This document shows positions 31,194-50,055 of a DNA stretch of 64,000 nt, in pieces (within the stretch, counting starts at the first letter, position 1; every line of letters starts with the position of its first letter). Below the pieces are notes generated by a model, which worked only from the letters and a program-made list of their open reading frames with translations, had not been told where the DNA came from and made no database searches. Both the position numbers and the translations under genes were made by a program. This DNA comes from Alphaproteobacteria bacterium (GTDB lineage Bacteria; Pseudomonadota; Alphaproteobacteria; UBA828), in NCBI GenBank assembly GCA_022823305.1, contig JAJDXK010000033.1, forward strand, positions 87,348-151,347, given 5' to 3'.

Positions 31194-31217
31194 GCCGCAT
31201 CACCCCCGCGGGCGCCA

Positions 31218-32447: not shown

Positions 32448-33343
32448 CAGCGCACGCGTCGAAGGGCCGTCTGGGTGAATTCGCCGTCTTCAAGATTGTT
32501 GCGGAACTGGAAATCGCTCCATTTGAGCACCGTGCTCGCGCCGGTCAGGTGATTCACCATCGTCTGCTCCCCTGCCCGCCAGTACCGATCCAGATATTGC
32601 CGATAGTCCGCAAGAGTGAGCGTCTTCAGGTGCGAGCCCTTGCGGTCGTAAAGCTCCATCTTCCAGGTGCGAAGCTCCGCCGCGTCTTGCCAAACGACTT
32701 TGCGGCTGTACCCGGACTTCTTGTCCAGAGGAACTTGCTCGATCACCGTACACGTGAGTTCGCCGCAGGGCTCATCGCGAAGATACTTGTAGGTGTATTC
32801 CTCCACCTCCAGAGCGCTCATGTCTTCGTATGAAAACTCGCTTCCCATGAACGATCCGGAACGCTTCGCGGCGTTGATGCGCTTCACCCTTTTCAGGGCC
32901 GGCAGATAGAGCCACTGGTCGTCCTGAGCGTTGATGTGAGCGTGGGTCAGGAGGGCGGTTCCCCGCACGTCTCTCGGCTGATCGAACACGAACAGGCTCT
33001 TGTCGCCATCCTCCGGCACTTCCAGCACCTTGAAGCGCATCTGACGGACGCTCTCCCGACCTTGCCGGTCGCGCAGCACCATGGTCATTTCAGCGGTGAA
33101 ATCCCTGAACCCGTCGTCGCGGGCGCTTGCTTCAAGCGCAATTCTCAGGCCCTTGTCCTCCGGTGTTTCTTCCTGGGCAAGAGCCTGTGCAATTGGCAAG
33201 CAGAAGCACACCAGCGCCAGAACCAGGGCAGCGAACCAAACGCCCTGGAGGCATGAGAAACGCGTGGACCAGATCTGGCCGATTAACCATCTTTTGGCGA
33301 TTTCGTGGTCAGGGAACATCCGCACGGGTCCCGTGATGAACAT
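32447..33343 (-). CDS. LolA-like outer-membrane lipoprotein-sorting family protein
   Basis: 298 residues. After an N-terminal hydrophobic segment (ALVLALVCFCLPIAQALA, predicted signal peptide) the protein shows the LolA-like half-barrel signature of this family: FVFDQPRDVRGTALLTH, WLYLPALKRVKRI, SGSFMGSEFSYEDM. Such proteins accompany RND/MMPL lipid or natural-product exporters and probably chaperone hydrophobic cargo across the periplasm. The start is uncertain (ATG 33343 or ATG 33319, neither with a good ribosome-binding site). First gene of the unit LolA-like - barrel - halogenase. Confidence 0.8.
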   Translation of the reverse strand: MFITGPVRMFPDHEIAKRWLIGQIWSTRFSCLQGVWFAALVLALVCFCLPIAQALAQEETPEDKGLRIALEASARDDGFRDFTAEMTMVLRDRQGRESVRQMRFKVLEVPEDGDKSLFVFDQPRDVRGTALLTHAHINAQDDQWLYLPALKRVKRINAAKRSGSFMGSEFSYEDMSALEVEEYTYKYLRDEPCGELTCTVIEQVPLDKKSGYSRKVVWQDAAELRTWKMELYDRKGSHLKTLTLADYRQYLDRYWRAGEQTMVNHLTGASTVLKWSDFQFRNNLEDGEFTQTALRRVR

Positions 33344-34333: not shown

Positions 34334-36544
34334 ATGCCGTCCCGCGCCTCCAAGGAGGCAAGCGACAAGGCCGCATCGGACATCTTGAAGCGCAGGGTGA
34401 CCACGCCAGTTCTGTTGCAGATGCACGCATCGGAATGTGGCGCCGCCTGCCTCGGCAGCGTACTGGCCTATTTCGGGCGCTGGGTGCCGCTCACCGAATT
34501 GCGCGAAAAGTGCGAGGTCAGCCGAGACGGGAGCAGTGCCGCGAGCATCTTGCGCGCTTCCCGACATTATGGCCTCGAGTGCAGTGGACTCAGCATCCGC
34601 GCCGAGCAGCTGAAGAAGCTGCAGTTGCCTCTGATTCTGTTTTGGCAATTCAGCCATTTCGTCGTTCTCGAAGGCTACGATGGCCGCCATTTCTATCTCA
34701 ATGACCCGTCTACGGGTCGACGCAGGCTTTCCGCCGAAGAGTTCAACAAGAGCTACAGCGGCATTGCGCTGCAATTCAAGCGCAGCGCCGATTTCAGCCC
34801 CGGTGGCGAGCCCCCCGGCCTGTTCAGGCAACTGGGCACCCTGGCCGTCGGATCGTGGAGCATGGTCACCTGGGTGATCGCCTGCGGGCTCATGTTGACG
34901 TTGCTGACGCTTGTCGTTCCCGTATCTCTCAGTGTCTTCGTGGACGACGTACTGGCAAACCATGGGCCCTGGGGCGGGCTGGTGGCGGCCCTTCTCGGCG
35001 GCGGTGCCCTGGTTTACATCCTGTCCTTGCTCAAGCACCGATTCCTGAAGCGGCTGGCAGTGCGGATTTCGGTGGCCGGCTTCAGTCGGGGCTTGTCGCG
35101 GCTGCTGCGGCTGCCGGTGGAGTTTTTCGAACACAGACTGGTCGGCGATCTGACCGATCGGGTCTCGTCCATCGACAGAATTGCGAAGAATCTGACGGAC
35201 CAGTTTCTCGTACTCATTGTCGACATGGCAATGAGCGCCGTGCTGCTCGTCGCGATGTTTGCCTACGACGTTGTGCTCACGCTTATCGTTCTGGCTCTGG
35301 CCCTTCTGCACGGATTGCTGGCCCACTTTCTCAACGGACTCCGGGTTGTTCGCAGCCAGGCGATGAGGCGCGAGCAGGGATTGCTGATCGGCATGGGCAT
35401 GCAGATGTTGAGTCATGCGGACAACCTGCGCATGACGGGATCGGATGACCGGCTCTTCTCGCGCTGGAGCGGCCAGCAGGCGCGCGAGCTGCATGCGCGT
35501 CAGCTCTATTCCGAACTGGGCTCCGTCAACAGCGCGCTTCCCGGCCTGATCGCCGCATTTCGCAGCGCGGCGATCCTGGGCTTCGGGGGCAGTCTGGTCA
35601 TGAGCGGTGACATGACCCTGGGGACGCTGGTCGGATTCTTCATCCTGGCAGAGATGTTTCTGGCGCCTGTCGGGCGCTTCCTGGAGTTCGCCGACAAACG
35701 CCAGGCGCTCGAGACCGACCTGCAGCGGCTCGACGACATCTCCAAGGCCGCCGAAGACCCCGTCTTCAAGCGCCGAAATCCGGAATCGGAGTCGATCGTC
35801 ACGTTCAATGGCCAGCTCCAGCTTGCAGGCCACCTCGAGCTGCGCAACGTCACCTTCGGTTTCAACAAGAGCCGGCCGCCCCTGATCAAGGACTTCAACC
35901 TCGCGATCAAGCCGGGACAGAGAGTTGCCGTGGTCGGCCCCAGCGGCTCCGGCAAGTCGACCCTGGCGCGCTTGGTTTCGGGCGTCTATCAGCCCTGGTC
36001 GGGCGAGATCCTGTTCGACGGCCATGTGCGGGACGAGATTCCCGAGGAAGTGCTGCGGCGCTCCAATTCGATGGTGGCTCAGGAGAGCGTGCTCTTCTTC
36101 GCGTCACTGCGCGACAACATCACCCTGTGGAACCCGGCCGTTCCCGACGAGGCCATCTTCGCCGCGGCACGAGATGCCGCCATTCATGACGAAATCCTGC
36201 TCAGACCGCACGGGTATTCGACCCTCGTCGAGGAAGGAGGCGCGAATTTCAGCGGCGGCCAGCGGCAACGGCTGGAAATTGCCCGTGCGCTGGTGGGCAA
36301 TCCGTCATTGCTCATTCTGGACGAGGCGACCAGCGCCCTCGATGCCGCGACGGAGGAATACGTCGATGACGCCTTGCGGCGTCGCGGCGTCACCTGCCTG
36401 ATCGTGGCTCACCGGCTGAGCACCGTGCGGGATTGCGACGAAATCATCGTGCTCGACAAGGGAATCGAGGTGCAGCGCGGCAGCCACGAAGAGCTGATCG
36501 CGGACCGGGACGGCACCTATTACAAGCTGGTCAAGTCAAGCTGA
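34334..36544 (+). CDS. NHLP-family peptidase-containing ABC exporter (C39 peptidase - permease - ATPase)
   Basis: 736 residues. The N-terminal C39 domain has the catalytic triad C35 (HASECGAACL), H108 (FWQFSHFVVLEG) and D124 (NDPSTG). A six-helix permease domain follows, then an ATPase with Walker A GPSGSGKST, signature FSGGQRQRL and Walker B LLILDEATSALD. Such proteins cut the leader after a Gly-Gly or Gly-Ala type site and export the core. The natural substrate here is the 42423 precursor, whose leader ends ISAG. Its stop overlaps the start of the next ABC gene. Confidence 0.92.
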   Translation: MPSRASKEASDKAASDILKRRVTTPVLLQMHASECGAACLGSVLAYFGRWVPLTELREKCEVSRDGSSAASILRASRHYGLECSGLSIRAEQLKKLQLPLILFWQFSHFVVLEGYDGRHFYLNDPSTGRRRLSAEEFNKSYSGIALQFKRSADFSPGGEPPGLFRQLGTLAVGSWSMVTWVIACGLMLTLLTLVVPVSLSVFVDDVLANHGPWGGLVAALLGGGALVYILSLLKHRFLKRLAVRISVAGFSRGLSRLLRLPVEFFEHRLVGDLTDRVSSIDRIAKNLTDQFLVLIVDMAMSAVLLVAMFAYDVVLTLIVLALALLHGLLAHFLNGLRVVRSQAMRREQGLLIGMGMQMLSHADNLRMTGSDDRLFSRWSGQQARELHARQLYSELGSVNSALPGLIAAFRSAAILGFGGSLVMSGDMTLGTLVGFFILAEMFLAPVGRFLEFADKRQALETDLQRLDDISKAAEDPVFKRRNPESESIVTFNGQLQLAGHLELRNVTFGFNKSRPPLIKDFNLAIKPGQRVAVVGPSGSGKSTLARLVSGVYQPWSGEILFDGHVRDEIPEEVLRRSNSMVAQESVLFFASLRDNITLWNPAVPDEAIFAAARDAAIHDEILLRPHGYSTLVEEGGANFSGGQRQRLEIARALVGNPSLLILDEATSALDAATEEYVDDALRRRGVTCLIVAHRLSTVRDCDEIIVLDKGIEVQRGSHEELIADRDGTYYKLVKSS

Positions 36545-38058
36545 TGCCGGACAGAAGCCCGGAATACACATCGATAGCCGAGCTTGCCGCTCGCTCCGGC
36601 ACGTCCGTGCCCTGCGCCGGCAACCTGCCGGTGAAGCTCGACGACCCGGACAGCGTCTGGTTCATCGATCAGGGCGCCGTCAATCTGTTTCTGGTCGAGT
36701 TCAAGGACGGGGTGGAGCAGGTGGCGCCCCAGCATCTGTTGCGCCGCGAGGCGGGTTGGCTGCTGCCGGGTGTTGCACCGGACCGACGCGACAAGGATGC
36801 GGACACGACGCTCAGCCTGATTGCCAAGGGATCGCCGGGTACCCTCCTCAAACGCCTGCCGGCATCCCTTCTCTCCCAGGTTCATCCCGCAGAACTGGCG
36901 GAACAGACCGACACGTGGCTGACCGCCATTACCGACACGCTTTCGCGTTTTGCAAGCCACCTTCCGCGCCCGACGGCGCTGGCCGAACCCGGTCAGACGC
37001 AGACCCTGCCCCCGGGCACGCTATCCGTGCGGCGCGGCGTGGTGTGGGTGTCCGAGCCGCCACATGGCGCAAGCCTGTTCATGAACATCGTCGATCAGGC
37101 GGAGCTTGCCGGGACACGAGGTCCCCACGAAGCTCTCATTCCGCTGACGAGGACGAGCTGGCTCACCCTGTTCGACGAGGCCACTCTCTCGGGCAAGTCG
37201 AGCGAGGCACTGGCGCAGCAAGGCATGCTGCTGCCGGCGCTCGCCTCCTTTCACGCGGTTGCTCTCGCCCTGGAGCGCCTCAACCGCCAACTGGCCATGG
37301 TCGACGACGCGAATCTCGATCGCGCGCGGACGGCGAGCCGCCGCACGGCCGAAAAGGCTGCGCGGCAGCGGCTCTTCAACATCTATGACCTGCCGGTCGA
37401 CCGGGATGCCAGTGTCGAGGACACGTCTCTGGCGGATGCCCTGCAGATCATCGGCCGCCACGAAGGCATCGACTTCGAGATTCCGGTGCGCTCGGGGCCT
37501 TCCGATTCTCCGATCGGCCTCGTGGACGTTCTCGATGCCTCAGGCGTGCGCGCACGGCGCGTGCGATTCAAGGCCGAGGGCAACTGGTGGCACGGCGACA
37601 GCAACGCGTTGCTGGTATTCCGTGCCGAAGACGGCCAGCCCGTGGCGCTGCTGCCGGGAATGTTCGGGCGCTACCGGGTCATCGACCCGGTCAGCAAGCG
37701 CAGCGTCCGGATTACGGCGGAGCGCGCCGGCGCGCTGGGCGACGAAGCCTGGATGTTCTATCGGCCATTGCCGTCGGGAAACGTGAAACCGGCGGACCTG
37801 CTGGGAATCGCCCTGCACGGATCGGGCGCGGACCTGGCAAGGCTGGTGATTGCCGGGCTTCCGGCCGGCATGATCAAGCTGCTGCCGGCACTCGCGCTCG
37901 GGTTCGTTGCGACTCACGTCATGGCGGGCGGAAGCGCCGGAGCGCTCTATGTCGTGGCCGCGGGACTGGCGGGGTTCGGCCTGCTCGGCGCGCTGCTGCA
38001 CCTGCTTCAAAGCACGGCGATGATGCGGCTCGAGGGGCGCTCCGCGTCGCGGCTGTAG
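36544..38058 (+). CDS. NHLM-type ABC transporter, N-terminal part (ends at an in-frame amber codon)
   Basis: 504 residues. It contains the cyclic-nucleotide-binding-like N-terminal region of NHLM transporters (WFIDQGAVNLFLVEF), the linker domain and the first two transmembrane helices (about 430-495), ending MMRLEGRSASRL-stop. The same reading frame continues uninterrupted after TAG (38056-38058) with AAVWDRLMRLPP, exactly what an intact NHLM transporter has next. The break is therefore one nonsense codon, CAG to TAG being the simplest change. ATG 36544 overlaps the previous stop (TGATG-type). Confidence 0.8.
   Translation: MPDRSPEYTSIAELAARSGTSVPCAGNLPVKLDDPDSVWFIDQGAVNLFLVEFKDGVEQVAPQHLLRREAGWLLPGVAPDRRDKDADTTLSLIAKGSPGTLLKRLPASLLSQVHPAELAEQTDTWLTAITDTLSRFASHLPRPTALAEPGQTQTLPPGTLSVRRGVVWVSEPPHGASLFMNIVDQAELAGTRGPHEALIPLTRTSWLTLFDEATLSGKSSEALAQQGMLLPALASFHAVALALERLNRQLAMVDDANLDRARTASRRTAEKAARQRLFNIYDLPVDRDASVEDTSLADALQIIGRHEGIDFEIPVRSGPSDSPIGLVDVLDASGVRARRVRFKAEGNWWHGDSNALLVFRAEDGQPVALLPGMFGRYRVIDPVSKRSVRITAERAGALGDEAWMFYRPLPSGNVKPADLLGIALHGSGADLARLVIAGLPAGMIKLLPALALGFVATHVMAGGSAGALYVVAAGLAGFGLLGALLHLLQSTAMMRLEGRSASRL
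38056..38058 (+). other. In-frame amber codon splitting the NHLM transporter
   Basis: TAG lies between CGG CTG and GCC GCG GTC TGG in frame with open reading on both sides and with homologous protein sequence on both sides. It could be a real nonsense mutation, a programmed read-through, or a base-calling error. Confidence 0.75.
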
Positions 38059-38079
38059 GCCGCGGTCTGGGACCGCCTC

Positions 38080-39486
38080 ATGCGCCTTCCGCCGAGCATT
38101 CTGCACCGGCAACCGGCCGGCGACCTGGCCATGTCGGGAATGACATTCCAGAACCTTCGCGACGGCCTGCAGGGAGTCGTCGCCGACAGCCTGCTGTCGG
38201 TCATCTTTCTGCTGCCGGTCTTCGGCGTCATCTTCTTCTACGATGCCACCCTGGGCGTCATCGCCCTGGTCTTCAGCCTGGCTTCGCTGCTGGTCACGGT
38301 GGTCCTCGGGCTGCGCCAGATCTCGCCCTATGGGCGGATGATCAGCGCGGCGCGCCGCGTGGCCGGACGGCTGTTCCAGATCGTGGGCGGAATCGCCAAG
38401 CTGCGCGTGGAAAACGCGGAAGGGTCGGCTTTCGCCATCTGGGCGCGGGATTATCGCGAGCAGAAGCGTGCCGAAATCGAGCTGGGCGCTCTCGAGGGTC
38501 ACTCGCGGGCATTCGGCGCCGCGCTTCCCTTGCTTGCCGGCGGGGTCCTGCTTTTCGCAGCCGTGGAGGTGGGCGAGCGGCCCGTCCCGGTCGGCGATTT
38601 TCTCGTCGTCTACATCGTCTTCATCGCTTTCCAGTCGGCCGTCGCCCGGCTCGGCGAGTCCTTCGGCACCATTGCCGCCATGCTGCCGGCGTTCGATCAG
38701 ATGCGCCCGCTGCTCGCCGCAGTTCCTGAATCCGAGGTCGGAGGAGAGCCTGTCGAATATCTGGGCGGCGACATCCTGTTCGACCGCATTTCCTTCCGCT
38801 ACGACCCCGACGGCCCGCTGATTCTCGACGATGTCACGATTCGGGCCGGGCCCGGCGAATTCGTTGCGATTGCCGGCGAGTCCGGTGCCGGCAAGAGCAC
38901 GCTCTTCCGGCTCGCGCTCGGGATCGACCGACCAAGCGCCGGCGCGGTGTATTACGACGGACGTGATCTGCGGCACCTGAACCTGAAGCAGGTGCGCCGG
39001 AGAATCGGCGCCGTGCCGCAATCGGTTGGCCTCCATCCCCAGGATCTCTGGGACAATCTGGTCAGCCACCACGATCGAGTGGCGACCGAGGATGTATGGA
39101 CGGCGGTCCGGGTCGCCGAGCTCGAAGACGAAATCAAGGGCATGCCCATGGGCATGATGACCATGGTCGGCACCAGCGGGGCTGTCCTCTCGGGCGGCGA
39201 GAGTCAGCGCGTCACGATCGCCCGATCGGTGATCGGCAGCCCGCGAATCATGCTGTTCGACGAGGCAACCAACTGGCTGGACAACGAAAGCCAGGCCAAG
39301 GTCATGCGTAATCTCACCGCCCTGACCTCCACCCGGGTCGTCATCGCCCACCGCCTGTCCACGCTGGAACAGGCCGACCGCATCTACGTGTTGCAGGCCG
39401 GAAAGGTCGTGCAAAGCGGCTCCTTCAACGAACTCATGGAGGTCGAAGGGGTATTCAGAGAACTGGTCAGGAGGCAGGTCGCCTGA
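38080..39486 (+). CDS. NHLM-type ABC transporter, C-terminal part (permease and ATPase)
   Basis: 468 residues if translation re-initiates at ATG 38080 (MRLPPSILHRQPAGDLAMSG). It carries the remaining transmembrane helices and a full ATPase: Walker A GESGAGKST, Q-loop region, signature LSGGESQRV, Walker B IMLFDEATNWLD and switch AHRL. No ribosome-binding site precedes 38080, so re-initiation would depend on coupling to the upstream stop. With the first part it makes the roughly 980-residue NHLM bacteriocin transporter that normally pairs with the C39 exporter. Confidence 0.8.
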   Translation: MRLPPSILHRQPAGDLAMSGMTFQNLRDGLQGVVADSLLSVIFLLPVFGVIFFYDATLGVIALVFSLASLLVTVVLGLRQISPYGRMISAARRVAGRLFQIVGGIAKLRVENAEGSAFAIWARDYREQKRAEIELGALEGHSRAFGAALPLLAGGVLLFAAVEVGERPVPVGDFLVVYIVFIAFQSAVARLGESFGTIAAMLPAFDQMRPLLAAVPESEVGGEPVEYLGGDILFDRISFRYDPDGPLILDDVTIRAGPGEFVAIAGESGAGKSTLFRLALGIDRPSAGAVYYDGRDLRHLNLKQVRRRIGAVPQSVGLHPQDLWDNLVSHHDRVATEDVWTAVRVAELEDEIKGMPMGMMTMVGTSGAVLSGGESQRVTIARSVIGSPRIMLFDEATNWLDNESQAKVMRNLTALTSTRVVIAHRLSTLEQADRIYVLQAGKVVQSGSFNELMEVEGVFRELVRRQVA

Positions 39487-39796
39487 TCCGAAGCCACAGC
39501 CCGGGCCACCATGCATGAGCTCTGTAGAACCCGAGTCCTTGACACCGTACCGGAGCGGATCATAGTTGGCCCGCATTGTCCTCCAGTCTGAGTTGCCGCG
39601 AATGGTGTAAGCCTTGATCGACCTTGTTCCGGAGCGGGGGGTTCGGAGCACGTGGTCCAGGTCGGACTGCGCTCGGCGCAGTCGGATTCCGGGCTGCGGG
39701 TCGGTGCATTCGCTATCTGGCCCCACACTGCGGGTGCAATGAAACGTCGCACGCCACCTGCCCCCAGGGGCGTTCGCAGCTAGTGGCGCCGGCGCT
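39487..39796. other. Intergenic region between the NHLM transporter and the RND exporter
   Basis: 310 bp with no gene that I can support. Neither element A/B nor the 16-bp motif occurs here. A minus-strand open frame in the region has no recognisable protein features. The RND gene may be read through from the ABC genes or have its own promoter here. Confidence 0.4.
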
Positions 39797-42139
39797 GTGT
39801 TCAAGCGCGCCATAGCAGGAGAGCAGTTCGCGACCCGCTTTGCCGAGCGGGTGCTCAAGGCCCGCTGGCTGGTCATCGCGACCACCGTGTTCCTGGTTGC
39901 CGTCGCGACGGTCGGCATTACCCAGCTCGAATTCTCCGCGAACTACCGCATCTTCTTCGACGAAGACAATCCGCAGCTTCTGGCGCTGGAGGAGCTGGAG
40001 AATACCTACGGAAAGAATGAAAACATCGCGTTCCTGATTGTGCCGGACGACGGCGATGCCACCTCGCAGGATGCTCTTTCGGCCGCCGTCTGGCTTACCG
40101 AAGCCGGCTGGCAGATACCCTTTTCAAGGCGCGTCGACTCGCTCGCCAATTTTCAATACACGACCGCCGACGGCGACGATCTGTATGTGCGGGATCTCGT
40201 CGACCCGGAGGAATTGGCCCGAGCCGAAGCGCGCGCGCATATCCGCGACGTCGCTTCGTCCGACCCGCGTATCGCCGGCAGCATTCTGGGCCTGAAGGGT
40301 GATGTCAGCGTCGTAAGCGTCACCGTCGAGCTGCCGGAGGAGGGCCTGCTGGAGGCCGTGGCCGAAGTTGCCGAGTTCGCCAGGTCGGTCGCGGCGGAGG
40401 CGGAAGAGCGATTTCCCGGCATCGACCTCCGCGTCGTCGGCACGGTCATGATCAACCAGACCTTCGTGGAAGCCTCGATCAGCAGCCAGATGATCTTCCT
40501 GCCTGCGAGCCTTCTGCTCATGGCCGTGATTCTCGGCGTCCTCACCCGGCGCTGGGCGGGGGTGGCGGGGACCGGGATGGTCATCGTCTTTTCCATTTTC
40601 GTGTCGATGGGCCTGGGCGTGTGGTTCGGCCTGCCCTTCTCCCCGCCCGTCTCCCCGGCGCCGACCATCGTGCTGATGATCGTCGTGGCGAACTGCGTGC
40701 ACCTGCTGGTGACGCTGCAGCAGCGCCTGCGTGCCGGGGATTCCAAGCGCGACGCCATCGTGGAATCCGTCAAGCTCAACCTGCACCCGGTGTTTCTGGC
40801 GAGCCTCACGACGACGCTCGGATTCCTGAGCATGAACTTCTCCGAGGTGCCGCCCTACCGTCATCTCGGCAATTTCGTCGCCATCGGCATCGTCGCCTCC
40901 TTCATTCTCTCCGTCACCTTCCTGCCGGCCGTGCTTTCGCTTCTCCCCATGCGTGCCCCGAAGGAACGCCGGTGGTTGCGCGGGCTCTCGATGAACGTCC
41001 TTGCGGACTTCGTGCTGCGCCACAGAAGGGCGCTCATGCTGGGATGGCTGGCGATCGTCGTCGCGATGGCCGTGGGCATCCCGCGCAACGAGCTCAACGA
41101 TGTCCTGGTTCATTTCTTCGATGAGAGCGTCGAGTTTCGCCAGGATACGGACTTCATGGACGAGCACCTGAGCGGCAACACCCTGCTCGAGTACTCGCTG
41201 CACGCGCCCGCCGAGGGCGGCGTCACCGACCCCCAATTCCTCGCCGACGTTTCGAACTTCGCCGACTGGTACCGGGATCAGCCTCCCGTGCGCCACGTGG
41301 CGGTCGTCACCGATACCTTCCGCCAGCTCAACCAGAGCATGCGCGGCGACGACCCCGCCGCCTACCGGATACCGGAAAGCCAGGAGCTGGCGGCGCAATA
41401 CCTGCTGCTGTACGAGCTCTCGCTTCCGCAGGGACTGAACCTGAACAACCAGATCGACAGATCCCGGTCGGCCACGCGCGTGACCGTATCGGCGGAGACA
41501 CTGTCCTCGCAGGAGGTGCTCGACCTGAACGCGCATGCCGAAGCCTGGCTGAAGGAAAACGCGCCGCACGTGGCCGGCGTCAACAGCACCGGCCCCGCGG
41601 CGCTCTTCGCCTACATCGGGCAGCGCAACATCCGCGCCATGCTGATCGGAACAGCGGTCGTGCTGCTGGCCATTTCCGCCATTCTCCTCTTCGCCCTGCG
41701 ATCGCTGCGGCTGGGCCTGATAAGCATCGTCCCCAATCTGATTCCCGCCGTGCTGGGCCTGGGCGTCTGGGGATTCGCGGTCGGACAGGTGAGCCTCTCG
41801 CTGTCGGTCGTCGTGGCCATGACCGTCGGCATCGTCGTGGACGACACGGTGCATTTCCTCAGCAAGTACCGTCGGGCGCGGCTTGAATACGGCAAGGACC
41901 CCGAAGAGGCGGTGCGTTACGCCTTCGAAACGTCCGGCCGGGCCCTGATCACGACGACGATCGTGCTGGTGGCCGGCTTCCTGATATTCGTGTTCTCTCC
42001 CTTCGTCCCCACCGCAGAGGTCGGGGTCCTGACCGCGGTGATCATTGCCTTTGCGCTCATCGCCGACCTGTCGCTCCTGCCGGCGCTGTTGAAGACGCTG
42101 GACCGGAAGGCTGCGAAGCGGGCCCCGCCCGCGCCCTGA
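39797..42139 (+). CDS. RND/MMPL-family exporter
   Basis: 780 residues from a GTG start. Two RND repeats are visible: helix 1 (RWLVIATTVFLVAVATVGI), a periplasmic loop to about 225, a cluster of helices 235-385, then helix 7 (about 400-420), a second loop and a final helix bundle (about 615-770) with the conserved GIVVDDTVHFLSKYRRARLE. Length and topology match MMPL/HpnN-like exporters. With the LolA-like and barrel proteins it would form a trans-envelope path for a hydrophobic product. It is the last gene of the plus-strand export run. Confidence 0.88.
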   Translation: MFKRAIAGEQFATRFAERVLKARWLVIATTVFLVAVATVGITQLEFSANYRIFFDEDNPQLLALEELENTYGKNENIAFLIVPDDGDATSQDALSAAVWLTEAGWQIPFSRRVDSLANFQYTTADGDDLYVRDLVDPEELARAEARAHIRDVASSDPRIAGSILGLKGDVSVVSVTVELPEEGLLEAVAEVAEFARSVAAEAEERFPGIDLRVVGTVMINQTFVEASISSQMIFLPASLLLMAVILGVLTRRWAGVAGTGMVIVFSIFVSMGLGVWFGLPFSPPVSPAPTIVLMIVVANCVHLLVTLQQRLRAGDSKRDAIVESVKLNLHPVFLASLTTTLGFLSMNFSEVPPYRHLGNFVAIGIVASFILSVTFLPAVLSLLPMRAPKERRWLRGLSMNVLADFVLRHRRALMLGWLAIVVAMAVGIPRNELNDVLVHFFDESVEFRQDTDFMDEHLSGNTLLEYSLHAPAEGGVTDPQFLADVSNFADWYRDQPPVRHVAVVTDTFRQLNQSMRGDDPAAYRIPESQELAAQYLLLYELSLPQGLNLNNQIDRSRSATRVTVSAETLSSQEVLDLNAHAEAWLKENAPHVAGVNSTGPAALFAYIGQRNIRAMLIGTAVVLLAISAILLFALRSLRLGLISIVPNLIPAVLGLGVWGFAVGQVSLSLSVVVAMTVGIVVDDTVHFLSKYRRARLEYGKDPEEAVRYAFETSGRALITTTIVLVAGFLIFVFSPFVPTAEVGVLTAVIIAFALIADLSLLPALLKTLDRKAAKRAPPAP

Positions 42140-42185
42140 TCCGCGCCACCGGGCGCAAACCTGCGAACGACGTCACCGCTTTCGA

Positions 42186-42267
42186 GCGCCGCCGGATTGA
42201 AGCCCCAGGAAGGCCGCTCGATCGGAATTACGAGGCTGAAAGCGGCCCTGCCGCAACCCCCAAGCCG
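42186..42267 (+). repeat. Element B: conserved, potentially structured element (copy 2)
   Basis: Copy of element A (33557-33639). Outer GGCT (42234-42237) pairs with AGCC (42263-42266); inner GCGGC (42242-42246) pairs with GCCGC (42250-42254). The inner stem's last pair is C-G here and T-A in copy A, a compensatory change. It lies 156 bp upstream of the precursor ATG and 46 bp after the RND stop. Confidence 0.65.
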
Positions 42268-42322
42268 CCGGACACCCGGCCAAATGCTCCCGCGCTATAA
42301 TAATTGTTTACTGCAGCCATAA

Positions 42323-42338
42323 GAATTTCTGTATGCTT
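42323..42338 (+). promoter_or_regulatory. 16-bp promoter-like motif shared with the export unit (copy 2)
   Basis: GAATTTCTGTATGCTT, 14 of 16 identical to 33736-33751, in the AT-rich stretch (from about 42295) upstream of the precursor gene. Confidence 0.45.
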
Positions 42339-42422
42339 TCAAGAGGTTGACCCTGTAATATTGCCGTGATACCGTCGGTCGTTCACGTGTCGAAGTTTCA
42401 CGCGGAACGAAGGAGGATTGCC

Positions 42423-42674
42423 ATGAGAAGTGGCGATGAAATGCTGCAGCAGATTATCGAGAAGTCCGCCCTGGATGCGGACTTCAGGCAGCAGCTTCTC
42501 GCGGATCCAAAGACGACCATCAGCGAGGAATTGGGCGTCACGATTCCCGACTCGATGACCATCAAGATCCATGAGAGCGACATGCAGACCGTGCATCTCG
42601 CGCTGCCGCCGGACCCGAACATCACCGAGGAGCAGCTCGAAGCGATCTCGGCGGGCCTCTGCTGCTGCTGGTAG
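42423..42674 (+). CDS. NHLP (nitrile-hydratase-like leader) RiPP precursor with core LCCCW
   Basis: 83 residues with a strong GAAGGAGG 8 nt before ATG 42423, which rules out a longer form from 42366. Residues 1-78 are a nitrile-hydratase-alpha-type leader: ALDADFRQQLLADP, then ISEELGVTIPDSMTIKIHE and HLALPP. It ends EEQLEAISAG, a Gly-type cleavage site for a C39 peptidase, leaving only Leu-Cys-Cys-Cys-Trp before the stop. Three consecutive Cys are substrates for the adjacent cyclodehydratase/YcaO, and the Trp for the halogenase. It is followed by a hairpin at 42681. The leader is about half identical to the N terminus of the toroid enzyme at 48754. Confidence 0.9.
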   Translation: MRSGDEMLQQIIEKSALDADFRQQLLADPKTTISEELGVTIPDSMTIKIHESDMQTVHLALPPDPNITEEQLEAISAGLCCCW

Positions 42675-42797: not shown

Positions 42798-43919
42798 CTA
42801 CTGAGGGGAAAGCGCGGCGGACAGCACCATGAACACGTAGGCCTTGGCCTTTTCAAGCCGATTTCCGGATATGACCAGCTTTATGTGGTGAATGCCACGT
42901 AACAGAACGTAGCGCCCGGACTTCGCAAAGAGCGTTGTCGGCTTCGAAACCCAGTCAGCAAGCGCCGTCAGCTTCTCGGGAACCACGAGATCCTCGTGGC
43001 CGAGGGCTTCCAGGAACGGATCCCAATCGGTCAGGCCGTCGAGCCAATAGCGTGAATCTTTCGTATATCTCTGCTTGACGATGAGCGTGAGGCCGAGCGT
43101 CGGGCCGAGCCCCTCCTCCCGCACGTCGATATTGGCCCCGGTCCTGACAATATCCGCGCGCTCCCTGAAGCGTGAGATCACGGAATCGACAGCCGATAAC
43201 TGACCGGGCCAGCCCGTCTCTTCGAGATAGGAGCATAGTTCCCGCTGCGACTTGAAGCCCATGACCGCCAGGCGGATCGCCCGTGAGCGGGACGGGAATA
43301 TGCCGAACGAATCCATGCGCGTGTCGTCCGGCTGCGCCAGATAAACGCGTCCGACGTTCTCCCTCTGGGCGTCACCCATCTCCCAGCCCACGCAGGAAAC
43401 GAGCGCGTCAACCACCATGGCGACGTCGTTCGCCTGACCGCTGGCGCCGATAATCGGACGTTCGCCGGGCCGCAGGAACAGCCCCGGAAACGCGCTCTCG
43501 CCGCCGCGCGCCGAGCCGATGTCGTATTCCAGCATCAGCTTGCGGCCGACAATGTCGCGCAGAGGCGAGTCTTCGGCATCCAGTTGTTCGAACAGCCGCG
43601 TGATCGCTCTCGCGGCCTCATCCCTCCCGTCGGTCTGCGCGCGCTCCCGGAAAAACGCCGCCGGCCTGGTTCCGCTCGCCAGGGAGGCGCCGAAATCCGC
43701 CTCCGGCCTGCGTTCATGCAGCGGCAGCTCGAAGCCGAACGGCAGGGCACCCATGGTGATCGGAAGCGTCCCGGCGCGGTCGAGGATGCGCTCCCATTCC
43801 GGATCCCCGACAAGAACCGGCGAAACCCTGTTTCGAAATTGCCCGAGCAGATCACCCATGGTGCCGCCCTCTTCGGCGAGACGGTCCTGGGTAAGGGTGA
43901 TTGCCGCGTCAATGTCCAT
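42798..43919 (-). CDS. Unrecognised RiPP-cluster protein
   Basis: 373 residues, soluble, no signal peptide. No motif I can assign. Distinctive segments are MLEYDIGSARGGESAFPGLF, GRVYLAQPDDTRMDSFGIFP and a C-terminal GRYVLLRGIHHIKLVISGNR. It starts 9 bp after the YcaO fusion stop, as the last gene of the four-gene modification operon, so a role in maturation or in binding the intermediate is likely. No FMN-dependent thiazoline oxidase (SagB type) is otherwise encoded in the cluster, but I see no nitroreductase motifs here. Confidence 0.6.
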   Translation of the reverse strand: MDIDAAITLTQDRLAEEGGTMGDLLGQFRNRVSPVLVGDPEWERILDRAGTLPITMGALPFGFELPLHERRPEADFGASLASGTRPAAFFRERAQTDGRDEAARAITRLFEQLDAEDSPLRDIVGRKLMLEYDIGSARGGESAFPGLFLRPGERPIIGASGQANDVAMVVDALVSCVGWEMGDAQRENVGRVYLAQPDDTRMDSFGIFPSRSRAIRLAVMGFKSQRELCSYLEETGWPGQLSAVDSVISRFRERADIVRTGANIDVREEGLGPTLGLTLIVKQRYTKDSRYWLDGLTDWDPFLEALGHEDLVVPEKLTALADWVSKPTTLFAKSGRYVLLRGIHHIKLVISGNRLEKAKAYVFMVLSAALSPQ

Positions 43920-43928
43920 GATGCCTCC

Positions 43929-46283
43929 TCACGCGACGACAGGGGCGGGATTCAGGTCGGCTTCGGCGAGAGGGTGCTTGCGGCGGCCCATGCCGACGGG
44001 CACGTCGTAGAGCCGCCCGGGCGCGAACCGTGCCCAGAAGTGGCGCATGCCCGGCACGATGACCCGCACCACGGGCATGCCGATGTCGGGCCGGGTCTGG
44101 TCCAGCACCAGGAACTCCATGCCCCTGGCTTCGACGAGCGCGCGGCAATGCTCCACGTCTTCGCGCGTGTCGGCCGTCTCGATCACCGGATACTGCGAAG
44201 CCTCGCGGGACGGCTCGTCTGCCGCCGGCGCCAGCCAGGAACAATCGGCGAGCCGGGCGGTCTTCCACCACCAGAGCGCCAGCGGGTCGTCGATCATGGG
44301 CTTGCCGTCGCTCTTCCCGGGACGCGGCAGCCAGGTCAGGCACTGGTTGAGCTCGCAAAGCGCACGCAAGGCCGCGATGCGCGGGTCGGCGTGGGCGCCG
44401 GCGCCGTAGATGATGTCCTCGGTCCGGGCGTCCGGTCTGCGTGAGAGCGCGACGAACGCGGGAACGCCGATATCGGAGGTGACGTCGAGCATCCACAGTT
44501 CCCGCTCGTAGCCGGCGTAACGGCCCGGCGCCGATGCGAGGTACGCGTCGTCGAAGCTGGAAAGATCGACCGCCGGCACGCGCAGCCGGTTGTACCACCA
44601 GATGGCGAACGCATCGCGCTCGGCCAGCTCGTAGAAGCCCTGCAGGATGGCCTCTTCCAGGGTGTTTCCCGCGGCGCAGCCGTTGGAATCGGCGATCAGG
44701 TCCGCGGGGCCGCGCTCTTCGGCGGGCATGCTGTAGAGCATCGATGTCGGCAGATAGCGATGCCGCCGCTGCGTGAGCGACCACACCGGCGTCCAGTCGA
44801 TTTCGGCGCCCGCGTCGAGACGCGGCGGGACGACGTTGTACGGGTGACCCTTCGCGTTGATGGCTTTCGCGTTGTCGAGCTGATCGTCGCTGAAGAGCTG
44901 CGCATCGTTGGGGTGGATCGCCTCTTCTCCCCCGGCGAGCTCGACGAATCGCCTGCGGATACGGATCTCGTCGCCATGACAGGCGCCCGAGTGGCGCTCG
45001 ACCGCCTCGCAGAGGGCGCTGACCTCGGCCTGCGTCCGCGTGCTGCCCTTGCCGGCGCTCTTGCTGCGCAGGCTGCGCCTGAGCGAGCTCAGGCTCCGGC
45101 TTCTCATGCCGAGATTGCTTCCGGCCCAATAGACATGCAGCCAGGAATCGGTCTCGTCGGTCGTGCGCGACAGCCAGGTCACGACGCCGCTGACCGGGCT
45201 CACCAGGTGGCGGTATGTCGCCAGGGTGACCTCCGGCGCCACGGCGCGCGCGCCGCCGCTGTCGCGATGGGCCTTGGGACTCGCCTTCAGGCACAGTGGA
45301 AGCGGCGGCCGGTCCGGCCGATGCAGCGCATCGTCGCCACAGGCCGGACACTGCGGCCGGCGCATGACCCGGTGCTGCGAACTCGCGAACGTGCCGACAT
45401 TCATCGCGATCGCGTGCTCGTGAATCGGGGCCGCGTCCTCCAGCACCAGCCACTTGACGATCTCCGCCGCGATCAGCCCGTAGAGCGCCTCCAGCACCGC
45501 GGGCTGAACCGCGAAGGGCTTGAAGGCGGCGTCGGGGCCGGCAACGTTGCGCAGGAAGGCGTGGACCTCCCGATGGCTGCGCAGGCGGCACGCCAGGCAC
45601 TCCCAGCAGGGTCCTCGCCCGTCCGCGCGAAAGACGGGGCCGAACAGCGCCTCCATGCCGCGCGGGCGCACCAGCGTCCACGGCGCTCCCGCCTCGAGCC
45701 GGCGCCGGTTCACGTCTGCAAGCGGTGCGTCGAGATAGTCGTCGCAGACGACGACCGTGAGCGCAGGCTCGCCGGCCCCCACGCCGGCGCCGTTCTCTTC
45801 CAGATACCGGATCAGCCGGCCATCGCCGCCTTCGACCGCGATGCGCGAGTCCGCCAGCCGCTGCTCGACCCAGCGTGGCGAAGCGCCCAGCGACGACCAG
45901 TAGGCCGCCCGGCATCGCTCCATGCCATGGTCGGCAGAGACGACATAGCCCCTTGTGGAGAGCGAAACGAGGGCCGCGCGAACGTCGGCCGCGGCATGGG
46001 CGCCCTCGAGAGCCGCGGCGATCTCGTCATGCGCGCGCCGGCCGTCGAGCAGCGACAGCAGATCGCAATGGAGCTTGCCGTGCAGCAGGGTGTTGAACGA
46101 TTCCGAAACCAGCAGCGTCTGCTCTTCGCCGACGACGTGACATTGCAGGTGCGGGGCTAGCGCGGGAAGCGCGACGAGGCCCCGGTCCGCGGGAGTCGTC
46201 CTGGTCAATATCCCGGGCCGGGGATTCGTGTCCGTCTGCGCTGGCATGGGGGATTTCCGCGCCGGATCGGCCGGCGCCTTCAT
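43929..46283 (-). CDS. TOMM cyclodehydratase/YcaO fusion (leader-binding and ATP-dependent heterocyclase)
   Basis: 784 residues. The first half is the E1-like/ThiF-type partner: LHCDLLSLLDGRR region, then a tetra-cysteine zinc site with C226, C229 and C232 in CWECLAC plus C312/C315 in QCPAC. The second half (about 350-784) is a YcaO domain: KGSTRTQAEVSALCEAVERH and DSNGCAAGNTLEEAILQGFYELAERDAF reduced from the ATP-binding region. The C terminus ends NPAPVVA, a shortened form of the PxPxP tail that matters for YcaO activity. These fusions convert Cys/Ser/Thr to azolines. ATG 46283 overlaps the upstream stop by ATGA, fixing the start. Confidence 0.88.
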   Translation of the reverse strand: MKAPADPARKSPMPAQTDTNPRPGILTRTTPADRGLVALPALAPHLQCHVVGEEQTLLVSESFNTLLHGKLHCDLLSLLDGRRAHDEIAAALEGAHAAADVRAALVSLSTRGYVVSADHGMERCRAAYWSSLGASPRWVEQRLADSRIAVEGGDGRLIRYLEENGAGVGAGEPALTVVVCDDYLDAPLADVNRRRLEAGAPWTLVRPRGMEALFGPVFRADGRGPCWECLACRLRSHREVHAFLRNVAGPDAAFKPFAVQPAVLEALYGLIAAEIVKWLVLEDAAPIHEHAIAMNVGTFASSQHRVMRRPQCPACGDDALHRPDRPPLPLCLKASPKAHRDSGGARAVAPEVTLATYRHLVSPVSGVVTWLSRTTDETDSWLHVYWAGSNLGMRSRSLSSLRRSLRSKSAGKGSTRTQAEVSALCEAVERHSGACHGDEIRIRRRFVELAGGEEAIHPNDAQLFSDDQLDNAKAINAKGHPYNVVPPRLDAGAEIDWTPVWSLTQRRHRYLPTSMLYSMPAEERGPADLIADSNGCAAGNTLEEAILQGFYELAERDAFAIWWYNRLRVPAVDLSSFDDAYLASAPGRYAGYERELWMLDVTSDIGVPAFVALSRRPDARTEDIIYGAGAHADPRIAALRALCELNQCLTWLPRPGKSDGKPMIDDPLALWWWKTARLADCSWLAPAADEPSREASQYPVIETADTREDVEHCRALVEARGMEFLVLDQTRPDIGMPVVRVIVPGMRHFWARFAPGRLYDVPVGMGRRKHPLAEADLNPAPVVA

Positions 46284-48721
46284 GCGCGCGAATGAAGCGT
46301 ATCGATCCGGGCGGCGGCGCGGGATGCGGTCTCGGTGACCGCCGCTTCCAGCGCAGCGAAATCCTCGTGCCCGCACGCGTTCGCGACGAGAGACCTGACC
46401 TTCGGCCCGGCCGCAGCCGCGTCGAATCCTTCCTCGCCGATCAGGCGCATGATGCCCTGCAGATCCCGCCACAGGGCCGCGGCCTGCGCCAGCGGCCCGG
46501 CGCCGGCGGCATCGAGCACCGCCGCAGCGGTCGGAGCCGGATCGTCGAGGCCGACTCCGGCAGTCGTGAACTGCAGGAACCGCGCGGCCCTCTCGACATC
46601 GTCGAGCCCGCCACGCATCCGGGCGTATGCCGCCACGCCCGTTGTGACGGGGTCCCGCGCCGGCTCGCGCAACCGGGCGATGAGGGACTCGTCCACGCCA
46701 TTTTCGGCCAGGACTGCGCGCCGTGCTTCGTCGAAGCGGCGGCCGATGTCGGCCTCGCCGCACGCGAACGCGCAGCGCGCCCGGGTGAGGAGGGGAACGC
46801 CGCCGGAAGCAGGAATTCCGCAATGCCCGGCCAGTTCCGAAAGCGGCAGCGCAGGAAGGGACTTCGAGCCGGGCGGAATCGGCGAGAACAGCAGGCTTTC
46901 CCGCGCCAGCTCTGTGAGGGCCTTGCGGAAACGCCGAACGAGACGCCCGTTTTCGCCGGAGCGCCCGCCCTCATGGACGAAGAGCATCTCGATCGCGACG
47001 CCGGGAAAAGCCTCCCGGCTGGCGAGATCGCCCAGGAAGATGCCACCGACCCCGCCCGCGCCGAGCGGCCCGGCGCGCTCGGTGAAATCCGCGACCCCGG
47101 CGTCGAGAACGGTGGAAATGGAGGCTTCGGCGAGATTGGAGAGCGCAGTCTTCGCCTCGGCCGGCGAGAGGTTTCCGCGCACGACGTGCATGCCGATCTG
47201 GAATGCCTTGTCGTTCGACCAGTTGCGCACGATCTCGGCGGACTCCTTCGCATCGACCGTTGGCAATTCGGCGATCCGCTCCTTCATTTCCTGAACGCCC
47301 ATTTCGTGCGTCCAGTAGAGTCGCGCGAGCCCGCGCCGCGCTATCGCCTCGTATTCCTGATCCGGTCCGAAGCCCTTCGGCAGATCGAGATCGGTGAACT
47401 CCCGGTCCTGCAGGCTGTCGAGAACCTGCGAATTGCGCTCGATCCACCTGGCGAGCCGCGGGGCGGCGCCGAAGATTTCGACGATCGCCTCGAAGGCCTC
47501 GGGTCGCGCCGCGGATATCGGGCTGTCGTAGGCGCTCCAGTCATCGATTTCCGGGTAGAAATGCGCGCGCCATTGATCCACCAGCGGGTCCATCTTCGCG
47601 AACCAGCGCTTCGGCCGCAGCACGATGTTCATCATGTCGGCGTAGGTTCCCGGCAGTTCCGGCGATTCGTCGGGGCCCCACACCTGCAGCAACGGGTAGT
47701 GGCGGGATGCCACCGCATGATGATCCGCATGGCGCTGCATGTTGAAGAACATCCAGTTGCTGAACTTCCAGTCGGCGCTCCAGGAATGGCGCGGCAGCAC
47801 CTTTTCCCAACGGCCGTTGGGCAGCCGCACCCGGCGCAGGCCGTAGTGCTGGAAGTAGTTGCTGATCTTCATCGAAAAGACGCAGCACAGGCCGAGGAAG
47901 GCAAAGACCAGAACCGCCCAGATTCCGCCCATCCAGAACACCACTGCATACCAGAACGCAACGGCCATGCCGTAGCGCCAGAAGGGATTGCTGTAATGCC
48001 ACACAGGCAGGCGGCGACGCGCCAGCCGTTCACCGGCGACTTTCCACGAATTCGTGAGATTGCTCGCCACTTCCCTGGGGAAGTATCTCCAGAAACTTTG
48101 CCCCTTTGGCGCGGAGCCCACATCGTGCGGCGTGCCGACGTTGGCATGGTGGATATAGACATGCTCCGTCGCGTATTGGGGATAGGAGGCCGAAGAGAGA
48201 AGGAATTCGCCGAGCCGTCTTTCCCAGGTAGAGCGCCGGTGAACCAGCTCGTGACCGACGATGAATACGGCCTGTGCCTCCATCGTCAGAATGAGTCCCA
48301 GGAGCACGCCTTCCCAGATTGCGAACTGATCTGTAACAAGGATCTGCCACAGGCCGAAAACCAGCGTCGGCGGCCAGAGAAACGCCCAGCTCCAGAGCGG
48401 CAGATTATGCCAGAGAAGTCGTCGTTCCGGCGTTGCTGCCGGGTCCATGTTGCGCCCGTCGAGACCGAGCGCCCGATCGAGCGGCCCCGAGACAGCTATG
48501 AAGAGAAGCGGCGGCAGCAACCACCAGCCGCCATAGTACGCCGCGAGAACAATCAGCGGAAAAATGGCCAATGGCAGATAGTGCGGAACGGCGTTAAGTA
48601 TCGACGGCTCGGTGCGCTGCGTGCCGTCCGCCTCGCGTGGGCCTGAGTCACCATCTGCGACTGCATCTTGCGGCATGGGGGCATCCCCAAATGACTGTAG
48701 CTCCCGTGCGCCGGGATTCAT
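46280..48721 (-). CDS. AlkB-type membrane di-iron hydroxylase fused to a GlnE-like domain
   Basis: 813 residues from ATG 48721. Residues 40-400 are an alkane-1-monooxygenase-like membrane domain with all His boxes: GHELVHRR (156-163), EHVYIHHANVGTPHD (186-200), NYFQHYGL (288-295) and MQRHADHHAVASRHY (328-342). Residues about 465-813 resemble the adenylyltransferase/helical part of GlnE: a NREM-like NDKAF helix, then GAGGVGGIFLGDL where GlnE has its catalytic GGREL...DxD, LTRARCAFACGEADIGRRF and GGLDDVERAARFLQF. The catalytic aspartates appear lost. It may hydroxylate or desaturate a lipid part or the peptide. No similar fusion is known to me. Confidence 0.8.
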   Translation of the reverse strand: MNPGARELQSFGDAPMPQDAVADGDSGPREADGTQRTEPSILNAVPHYLPLAIFPLIVLAAYYGGWWLLPPLLFIAVSGPLDRALGLDGRNMDPAATPERRLLWHNLPLWSWAFLWPPTLVFGLWQILVTDQFAIWEGVLLGLILTMEAQAVFIVGHELVHRRSTWERRLGEFLLSSASYPQYATEHVYIHHANVGTPHDVGSAPKGQSFWRYFPREVASNLTNSWKVAGERLARRRLPVWHYSNPFWRYGMAVAFWYAVVFWMGGIWAVLVFAFLGLCCVFSMKISNYFQHYGLRRVRLPNGRWEKVLPRHSWSADWKFSNWMFFNMQRHADHHAVASRHYPLLQVWGPDESPELPGTYADMMNIVLRPKRWFAKMDPLVDQWRAHFYPEIDDWSAYDSPISAARPEAFEAIVEIFGAAPRLARWIERNSQVLDSLQDREFTDLDLPKGFGPDQEYEAIARRGLARLYWTHEMGVQEMKERIAELPTVDAKESAEIVRNWSNDKAFQIGMHVVRGNLSPAEAKTALSNLAEASISTVLDAGVADFTERAGPLGAGGVGGIFLGDLASREAFPGVAIEMLFVHEGGRSGENGRLVRRFRKALTELARESLLFSPIPPGSKSLPALPLSELAGHCGIPASGGVPLLTRARCAFACGEADIGRRFDEARRAVLAENGVDESLIARLREPARDPVTTGVAAYARMRGGLDDVERAARFLQFTTAGVGLDDPAPTAAAVLDAAGAGPLAQAAALWRDLQGIMRLIGEEGFDAAAAGPKVRSLVANACGHEDFAALEAAVTETASRAAARIDTLHSRA

Positions 48722-48753
48722 GTTATCACCGGTTAACGTAACCTGCAAATCAA

Positions 48754-50055
48754 TCAGACTCGCAAGAACTCGACGAGACACTCCAGAGCTTCGATGCAAA
48801 ACGCGGAGGTCACAGCTTCGGAGCCATGACCTATCTGCCCTACTGTTCCCCACTTTAGCGACTGGTCTCCAAACGCGAGAAATTCCGGCCAGCTACCGTC
48901 TTCATGTTGCGTACTTATGAGTCTTTCTGCCGCGCGTTTCGCGTCGACAGTTTCGATACTTCCAATGCTGCAAAGCGCCGATACGGCCTGAGCGGCCTGA
49001 AGAATGTTGCCGAATTCTCCCTCCCCGTCGCGCAAGGCAAGGATGCGTTCACCGAGTACAGGGCGTAATCGATCGAGGGCCGGCTGCGCCCGGCTCATGG
49101 CACGGGCAGTTGCATAGTAGATCGCGACCGTATCGGGATACCATTTGGACGAGTCCTCGACGCCGCCTTCGATAACCAGGTCTTCCAGCCAGCGTTGCGC
49201 TGGCCCGGTCTCGGGGCAGTCGCCGAGATAAGCGATGACATTCGCATTGACGACCGGGTCCGCTTCGAGACGAAAGCGCGACACGACATTGGGTTCGTCT
49301 TCCGCCAGAACCCAGGTCATGAAACGGCCTTCCTCGTCGCGATTCGCCAGGATTTGCGGGACGTTCCGCCCCAGCAGGATCCAGGGGTGCGCCCCGATGA
49401 CAAGGGAGCAGAGCGTGGTGCTGTCGAGATCCTGTGGCAGATGGCGGTAGTAGCGCCACAATCCGGGGTATTCGATGGTGTCGACGAGATACGCCCTGGA
49501 GGCGTCGCACATGGCCCTGGCCCGCGCGTCATCGCAGCTTTCCAGCGCGAGAACGCAGAGAGCCGTGATAAAGGGAGGCCTTTCGTAGTGCCGGGGAATG
49601 TCGGGATCGGCCACATTGAAGCGGATGCAGTGCCAGGCCCCGTTCTCGTCGATCGTGGATTCAAGGAACGCGAGGCCGCGGCGGATGCTTTCCCTTCCCG
49701 CCCCTGCAAGTTCCTCGGCGGTAGCGGCCTTCTTTCGGGCTTCCGGCCTTTTGGGAACGGGAGGACGAAGGGGCGGCGCGGGGTCGTGGAGCGTCTTGCG
49801 GAGAAACTCGAGCGATGCCGCACCGGTTTTCGCCGCCTCCCGCTCGGCCCCGGTGCGTCTGTCACGCGGCGGAAGCACCAGATGCGTCGTGGTAGAGCTT
49901 TCCTCGTGCACCTGAATTTCATGATCCCCGGCCAGCGATGCGCCCAACTCCTTTTCGATCGTTTCTCTGGGCCTCGCGAGAAGACGTTCGCGAAACTCGC
50001 TGTCCTCTGCCGCTCTCGATACGAGGAAATTTGCTGCGTCAACGGGCTTCTTCAT
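48754..50055 (-). CDS. NHLP leader domain fused to a terpene-cyclase/prenyltransferase-like alpha-toroid
   Basis: 433 residues; GGAAG precedes ATG 50055. Residues 1-65 are an NHLP leader homologue: EFRERLLARPRETIEKELGA and HEIQVHEESSTTTHLVLPP align closely with the precursor. After a Pro/Lys linker (about 90-115) residues 118-433 form an alpha-alpha toroid of the squalene-cyclase/prenyltransferase type, with QDLDSTT (208-214, resembling the DxDD box with the fourth residue Ser) and a C-terminal QHEDGSW QW-type repeat. It is the first gene of the modification operon. No C-terminal core-like peptide is present, so the leader portion probably acts in cis as a recruitment domain. Confidence 0.8.
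   Translation of the reverse strand: MKKPVDAANFLVSRAAEDSEFRERLLARPRETIEKELGASLAGDHEIQVHEESSTTTHLVLPPRDRRTGAEREAAKTGAASLEFLRKTLHDPAPPLRPPVPKRPEARKKAATAEELAGAGRESIRRGLAFLESTIDENGAWHCIRFNVADPDIPRHYERPPFITALCVLALESCDDARARAMCDASRAYLVDTIEYPGLWRYYRHLPQDLDSTTLCSLVIGAHPWILLGRNVPQILANRDEEGRFMTWVLAEDEPNVVSRFRLEADPVVNANVIAYLGDCPETGPAQRWLEDLVIEGGVEDSSKWYPDTVAIYYATARAMSRAQPALDRLRPVLGERILALRDGEGEFGNILQAAQAVSALCSIGSIETVDAKRAAERLISTQHEDGSWPEFLAFGDQSLKWGTVGQIGHGSEAVTSAFCIEALECLVEFLRV

Follow-up and report, generated by a model that had tools for sequence, protein, structure and literature searches.

The stretch of 64,000 nucleotides analysed here, referred to as the window (positions 87,348 to 151,347 of contig JAJDXK010000033.1, from an alphaproteobacterium of the lineage UBA828), carries a gene cluster around the precursor gene (positions 42423 to 42674, plus strand) of a ribosomally synthesized and post-translationally modified peptide (RiPP). 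Judged by its sequence, the precursor is almost certainly SrpE of the srp cluster. Two neighbouring genes, listed as hypothetical in public databases, encode proteins predicted to fold like a prenyltransferase and a terpene cyclase. The product is likely to be a tris-thiazoline peptide that is brominated and bears a cyclised prenyl group, an explanation of the gene set as a whole to which we give rather better than an even chance. The more specific proposal that this cluster, which is common in sponge bacteria, yields a ribosomal meroterpenoid, namely a prenylated 6-bromo-Trp tris-thiazoline pentapeptide cyclised by a class II cyclase that carries a copy of the leader, is put forward tentatively, at slightly short of an even chance.

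The precursor is an SrpE-type NHLP peptide of 83 amino acids, in which the leader (residues 1 to 78) ends with EEQLEAISAG and the core (residues 79 to 83) reads LCCCW. An earlier note made from the sequence had described an NHLP-type leader followed only by LCCCW and a stop codon, as well as a clear ribosome-binding site. Both descriptions were confirmed, the former by the open reading frame (ORF) and by a score of 71.5 bits of the leader against the TIGR03793 leader_NHLP model (cut-off 50.9), and the latter by the sequence AAGGAGG at positions 42410 to 42416 of the plus strand, just 5' of the ATG codon. A nitrile hydratase identity of the precursor was rejected, as the corresponding Pfam match spans only about 55 residues of the 83-residue peptide.

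The srp cluster specifies a sponge-derived RiPP proteusin system comprising SrpE, SrpC and SrpI, and its study was reportedly founded by Nguyen et al. in JACS in 2021. According to follow-up papers, the core of SrpE is LCCCW and SrpC turns its three Cys residues into thiazolines, with only partial modification of SrpE upon co-expression in E. coli; bromination of the C-terminal Trp by SrpI, which takes place at indole C6, requires that the leader is still attached (PMC10858898, PMC10286304). The published positions include the catalytic Lys84 and the residues P, Q, Q, V and S at 105 to 109 of SrpI, and NLTEEQL at residues 66 to 72 of the SrpE leader (PMC10858898, PMC10286304). The window encodes an SrpI-type flavin-dependent peptide brominase (29919 to 31193, minus strand; Pfam Trp_halogenase, E 1.1e-44) with Lys84 and PQQVS at 105 to 109, and residues 66 to 72 of its precursor leader read NITEEQL, both being comparisons by position. 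The hallmarks of srp in the window, besides the LCCCW core and the SrpI-type brominase, include an SrpC-type YcaO cyclodehydratase fused to an E1-like leader-binding domain (43929 to 46247, minus strand), which has a Pfam YcaO match and scored above the cut-offs of TIGR03604 (268.3 bits, cut-off 219.25) and TIGR03882 (135.1 bits, cut-off 36.9). The window cluster can be regarded as a further copy of srp, with which it shares the NHLP leader, the LCCCW core, the YcaO fusion and the brominase for the C-terminal Trp, and from which it differs by an interrupted gene for ABC transporter 2. The precursor is not new, as it matches SrpE and the YcaO and brominase chemistry has already been published. 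The suggestion in the earlier note that a YcaO enzyme forms thiazolines and that the Trp is halogenated agrees with the accessible reports on SrpC and SrpI acting on SrpE (PMC10286304, PMC10858898). By analogy, thiazolines and bromination are very probable on the LCCCW core of the window.

A protein search yielded 695 precursor homologues at E <0.001, and all of the best 120 of these 695, to which the statements on endings refer, end with GLCCCW. In GTDB genomes, 164 stretches were found to encode a precursor relative, and the best 80 of them, each from a differently named bin, were used for comparison. The precursors of all 80 loci comprise 83 amino acids and end with LCCCW, while the core and stop codon are spelled in 14 different ways at the DNA level. 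Together with the window, these loci provide 81 distinct precursor coding sequences and 71 distinct proteins, in which 40 of the 83 residues are invariant, including all five residues of the core. The ratio of non-synonymous to synonymous differences (pN/pS) in the leader was 0.114 (300 sampled pairs). Since the core residues are identical, the small non-zero pN of the core must be an artefact of multi-step codon paths. The conservation of the precursor is far beyond chance, and the record titles of the 80 loci name Alpha-, Gamma- and Deltaproteobacteria, Acidobacteriota, Gemmatimonadota, Nitrospira, Nitrospinota, Binatia and Rhodothermales; the srp cluster recurs in many bacterial groups. The comparison of homologous cores proposed in the earlier note returned LCCCW for all of these 80 loci and 120 proteins, and on this basis a longer core produced through a frameshift, by which that note could have been refuted, was rejected for the close family. 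More distant relatives carry the cores LCCCF, RCCC, LCCC, WCCCGN and FAPGGDSW.

The gene adjoining the precursor gene in convergent orientation (42798 to 43919, minus strand) encodes a protein of 373 amino acids with a predicted ABBA fold of aromatic or indole prenyltransferases, the model displaying a ten-stranded barrel of alpha-beta-beta-alpha repeats. This candidate prenyltransferase gene was present in 68 of the 80 fetched stretches, and whole-genome searches of the other 12 added 11 further copies, two of them with an internal stop codon, resulting in 79 of 80 srp genomes. It is located on the strand opposite to the precursor gene in all 68 loci and within 2.5 kb of its 3' side in 65 of them, the remaining three lying 5 to 8 kb away. 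The second hypothetical gene (48754 to 50055, minus strand) encodes a protein of 433 amino acids with a predicted class II terpene-cyclase fold, an alpha/alpha barrel covering approximately residues 112 to 431, and an N-terminal domain (residues 11 to 78) homologous to the precursor leader. The cyclase gene was detected in 56 of the 80 stretches and, by whole-genome searches of the other 24, in 17 more genomes (once in pieces), that is in 73 of 80. The leader-like domain was present in all 55 cyclases tested, and both protein families contain many invariant residues. The other cluster genes within the 80 stretches encode a YcaO protein (63 stretches), an AlkB-like protein (51) and a halogenase (46, counted in stretches only).

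The AlkB-like protein of the window (46280 to 48721, minus strand) is a probable membrane diiron monooxygenase, which matched the alkane 1-monooxygenase of PDB entry 8f6t over residues 69 to 383 (E 1.1e-49). AlkB alkane monooxygenases are characterised by histidine boxes, and His-rich motifs were observed in 39 long members of the family as HELxHK/R (33 of 39) and as HYGL/M, L/MQRHxDHH and EHxxxHH (each in 39 of 39). At its C-terminus, the window protein carries a fused GlnE adenylyltransferase-like domain (3.3e-19, residues 654 to 805).

The tiny scaffold consisting of LCCCW alone, as envisaged in the earlier note, probably falls short of the full product, since a predicted prenyltransferase, a class II cyclase fold and an AlkB-like monooxygenase are encoded in the cluster as well and recur in the srp loci of many groups. 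Taken by itself, the published reading would give a linear pentapeptide that is brominated and contains three thiazolines, and the prenyltransferase-, cyclase- and AlkB-like proteins would act elsewhere or be inactive. The srp biochemistry in the accessible parts of the published work deals with SrpC and SrpI only, as this alternative would have it, whereas the position of the prenyltransferase gene close to the precursor gene, its occurrence in almost every srp genome, the leader-like domain on every cyclase tested and the invariant residues of both families speak against it, and we consider it unlikely. Far less probable still is the notion that the leader-like protein of 433 amino acids represents a second RiPP precursor and not an enzyme. 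Its N-terminus scored 43 bits against TIGR03793, below the cut-off of 50.9, and P0304, a homologue of the leader-fused cyclase, bears the public name 'NHLP leader peptide family RiPP precursor', which is probably due to the leader-like domain, but the predicted cyclase fold disfavours this interpretation.

In the proposed meroterpenoid pathway, the YcaO fusion would convert the Cys residues of LCCCW into three tandem thiazolines, and thiazolines instead of thiazoles are expected since the genes scanned between 29.9 and 50.1 kb include none that could be recognised as encoding an azoline oxidase. The brominase would generate 6-bromo-Trp at the end of the peptide, the ABBA prenyltransferase would add an isoprenoid to the peptide, and the AlkB-like enzyme might oxidise the prenyl chain by epoxidation or hydroxylation. 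The cyclase would then close the prenyl chain next to or onto the bromo-indole, with Asp209-x-Asp211 as the presumed proton donor. Different modifying enzymes are reported to bind different surfaces of such leaders (PMC12455567), and the most plausible interpretation of the leader-like domain is that of a mimic that would dock the cyclase on enzymes binding the real leader. The C39 exporter would cut after ISAG, and the MMPL, LolA-like and DUF1302-like proteins may carry the greasy product across the envelope. Prenylation of the peptide is quite probable, and class II cyclisation in the pathway is favoured to a somewhat smaller degree.

The role of the C-terminal Trp was addressed with ten genomes that encode a CCC-containing core and were read from samples of 289, 396 and 369 genomes. 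Seven of these genomes contain the LCCCW core (G000, G102, G212, G306, G017, G521 and G008) and three contain other cores only (G313 with LCCCF, G315 with RCCC and G890 with LCCC). Genomes G000, G017 and G008 were the chosen sample centres, and the seven LCCCW genomes overlap with the 80 loci, G017 holding L021 and G008 holding L056. The completeness of G313 and G315 is 93% and 100%, respectively, and G890 has a size of 1.7 Mb. Genomes with nitrile-hydratase-like matches were left out, as were G288, G060, G189 and G287, in which several leaders match at 31-49%. Searches with the window proteins as queries (E 0.001), which remote relatives could escape, detected both the brominase and the cyclase in all seven LCCCW genomes and neither of them in the three others. 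Fisher's exact test for the association of brominase and cyclase with the C-terminal Trp gave a value of 0.008, or 1/35 without the three centres, which serves as a guide only because the genomes are not independent. G313 (LCCCF) and G102 (LCCCW) belong to one genus. The linkage of brominase and cyclase to the C-terminal Trp suggests that the cyclase acts at or onto the indole. Since these two genes come and go with the C-terminal Trp, the order and site of the chemistry are directly testable.

The prenyltransferase was retained in all three genomes without a C-terminal Trp, and the Trp can therefore not be its site in all relatives. Accordingly, the clusters with LCCC, RCCC and LCCCF cores rule out an exclusive prenylation of Trp across the family and say that the prenyltransferase's own site differs from the C-terminal Trp at least in these relatives. 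It is possible, at marginally less than even chances, that the Trp is the prenylation site. In an alternative scheme, the prenyl group would be attached to the N-terminal Leu after removal of the leader, to a Cys sulfur or to an Arg, and the bromo-indole would terminate the cyclisation, resulting in a terpene-bridged ring. The retention of the prenyltransferase with LCCC, RCCC and LCCCF cores, along with the joint absence of brominase and cyclase, is in line with such a scheme, but relatives of the prenyltransferase and the cyclase are likewise encoded on a contig whose precursor has a Cys-free core (FAPGGDSW), and the leader-dependent RiPP prenyltransferase MppC geranylates the Trp indole, and does so only with the leader attached (PMC12715784). 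On balance, this combined scheme appears fairly improbable. The contig in question belongs to genome G212 (L086, 4132-13001) and carries the Cys-free NHLP precursor together with ABC exporters and adjacent relatives of the prenyltransferase and the terpene cyclase. On its 13.5 kb neither a YcaO nor a halogenase match was detected, and no leader-like domain was recognised on the cyclase relative. No Rfam match to an RNA element was obtained in L086 or in the window. A divergent precursor with the core WCCCGN, in which the Trp occupies the first core position, is encoded in the same stretch as a prenyltransferase relative (L087, 14394-14639), and its genome, G008, also has an LCCCW cluster.

Besides the retention of the prenyltransferase without a C-terminal Trp, several observations weigh against the meroterpenoid proposal. 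The functions of prenyltransferase and cyclase depend on predicted folds. Foldseek comparisons of the prenyltransferase model yielded modest TM-scores of 0.39-0.51 by query length at root-mean-square deviations of 6.5-10, residues 285-296 are poorly modelled, none of 33 members of the candidate family matched a Pfam prenyltransferase family, and a search of the PDB by sequence with the prenyltransferase profile gave no match. The protonating motif of class II terpene cyclases is DxDD, of which the window cyclase keeps the two Asp residues in DLDST (209-213) with Ser at the fourth position, and DLDS occurs in 55 of 55 cyclases. The cyclase was not found in 7 of the 80 srp genomes, where gaps in metagenome-assembled genomes are possible. 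In the accessible parts of the follow-up literature, no srp product is named and no product mass is given. Moreover, the window copy of the cluster may be inactive or decaying, because the gene for NHLP export ABC transporter 2 (36541 to 39486, plus strand) is interrupted by an in-frame TAG codon at 38056-38058, both pieces matching TIGR03797 below the whole-protein cut-off. The ORFs of 46 of 50 relatives read through this position. Among the other four, L046 and L056 run off the stretch before the site, L078 is broken elsewhere and L048 (4767-6308) goes out of frame just a few residues from it. The TAG codon may reflect decay, a sequence error or an easily broken spot.

The nearest precedent for srp with a prenyltransferase and a cyclase is the mpp lanthipeptide cluster of Moorena producens, which combines genes for a brominase, a prenyltransferase, a terpene synthase and an oxygenase (PMC11791876). 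According to the accessible descriptions, both clusters share a long structured leader, a brominase, an ABBA prenyltransferase, a terpene synthase or cyclase and an oxygenase, whereas mpp differs from the window cluster by a Nif11-type leader, lanthionine rings formed by LanM, the core ACWRWSG and arginases, with YcaO thiazolines being unmentioned for mpp in these parts (PMC11791876, PMC12715784). The mpr proteusin cluster shares with the window a YcaO enzyme acting on NHLP leaders, and with a chimeric LCCCW core as substrate MprC/MprD forms a tris-thiazol(in)e; unlike the genes scanned in the window, mpr includes an azoline oxidase (PMC10286304). The candidate prenyltransferase is distinguished from the ABBA indole prenyltransferases MpnD, CymD and EpzP by lacking a Pfam or PDB sequence match and by its conservation beside a RiPP precursor, and the cyclase differs from the class II terpene cyclases MstE and drimenol synthase (PDB 6sbe, 9mhs) by the fusion to a RiPP-leader-like domain and by a predicted peptide-bound substrate. 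No description of prenyltransferase or terpene cyclase genes for srp was found in the accessible open-licence literature, and the 2021 founding paper may partly anticipate these assignments. If they are true, searches for the product would need other masses, and the leader-like fusion would represent an unusual means of recruiting a terpene enzyme to act on a ribosomal peptide.

The whole cluster occupies the minus strand at 29919-33343 and 42798-50055 and the plus strand at 34334-42674. C39-peptidase NHLP export ABC transporter 1 (34334 to 36544, plus strand) scored 838.3 bits against TIGR03796, slightly below the cut-off of 853.3, and has an N-terminal QMHASECGAAC, which we take to be the C39 peptidase motif. 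An MMPL/RND-type transporter (39797 to 42139, plus strand; Pfam MMPL, E 6.1e-33), a LolA-like outer-membrane lipoprotein-sorting protein (32447 to 33343, minus strand; Pfam PF17131, E 1.7e-60) and a DUF1302-like protein (31218 to 32447, minus strand), presumably an outer-membrane barrel, are encoded together (31218-33343 and 39797-42139), a set resembling a trans-envelope lipid route. All 18 members of the DUF1302-like family matched PF06980 (E no higher than 1 and as low as 2.6e-8), the window protein scoring 18.6 against a cut-off of 23.2, and the single match of the family profile to the PDB by sequence (E 0.74) was read as chance. To the left, the cluster is flanked by an ABC operon for branched-chain amino acids and two genes of the acetoacetate-decarboxylase family, which look unrelated to it.

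Among further loci, a flavoprotein in L085 (6004-7113) was rejected as a brominase, since its Trp_halogenase match is weak (E 0.0039, residues 13-56 only) and FAD-monooxygenase families match better. Remote prenyltransferase relatives stand beside ABC transporters in L088 and L089, where no NHLP precursor was recognised. Eleven NHLP leaders, matched via the leader only, are encoded within about 5.5 kb of one contig in genome G288 (C1, 1018387-1023847).
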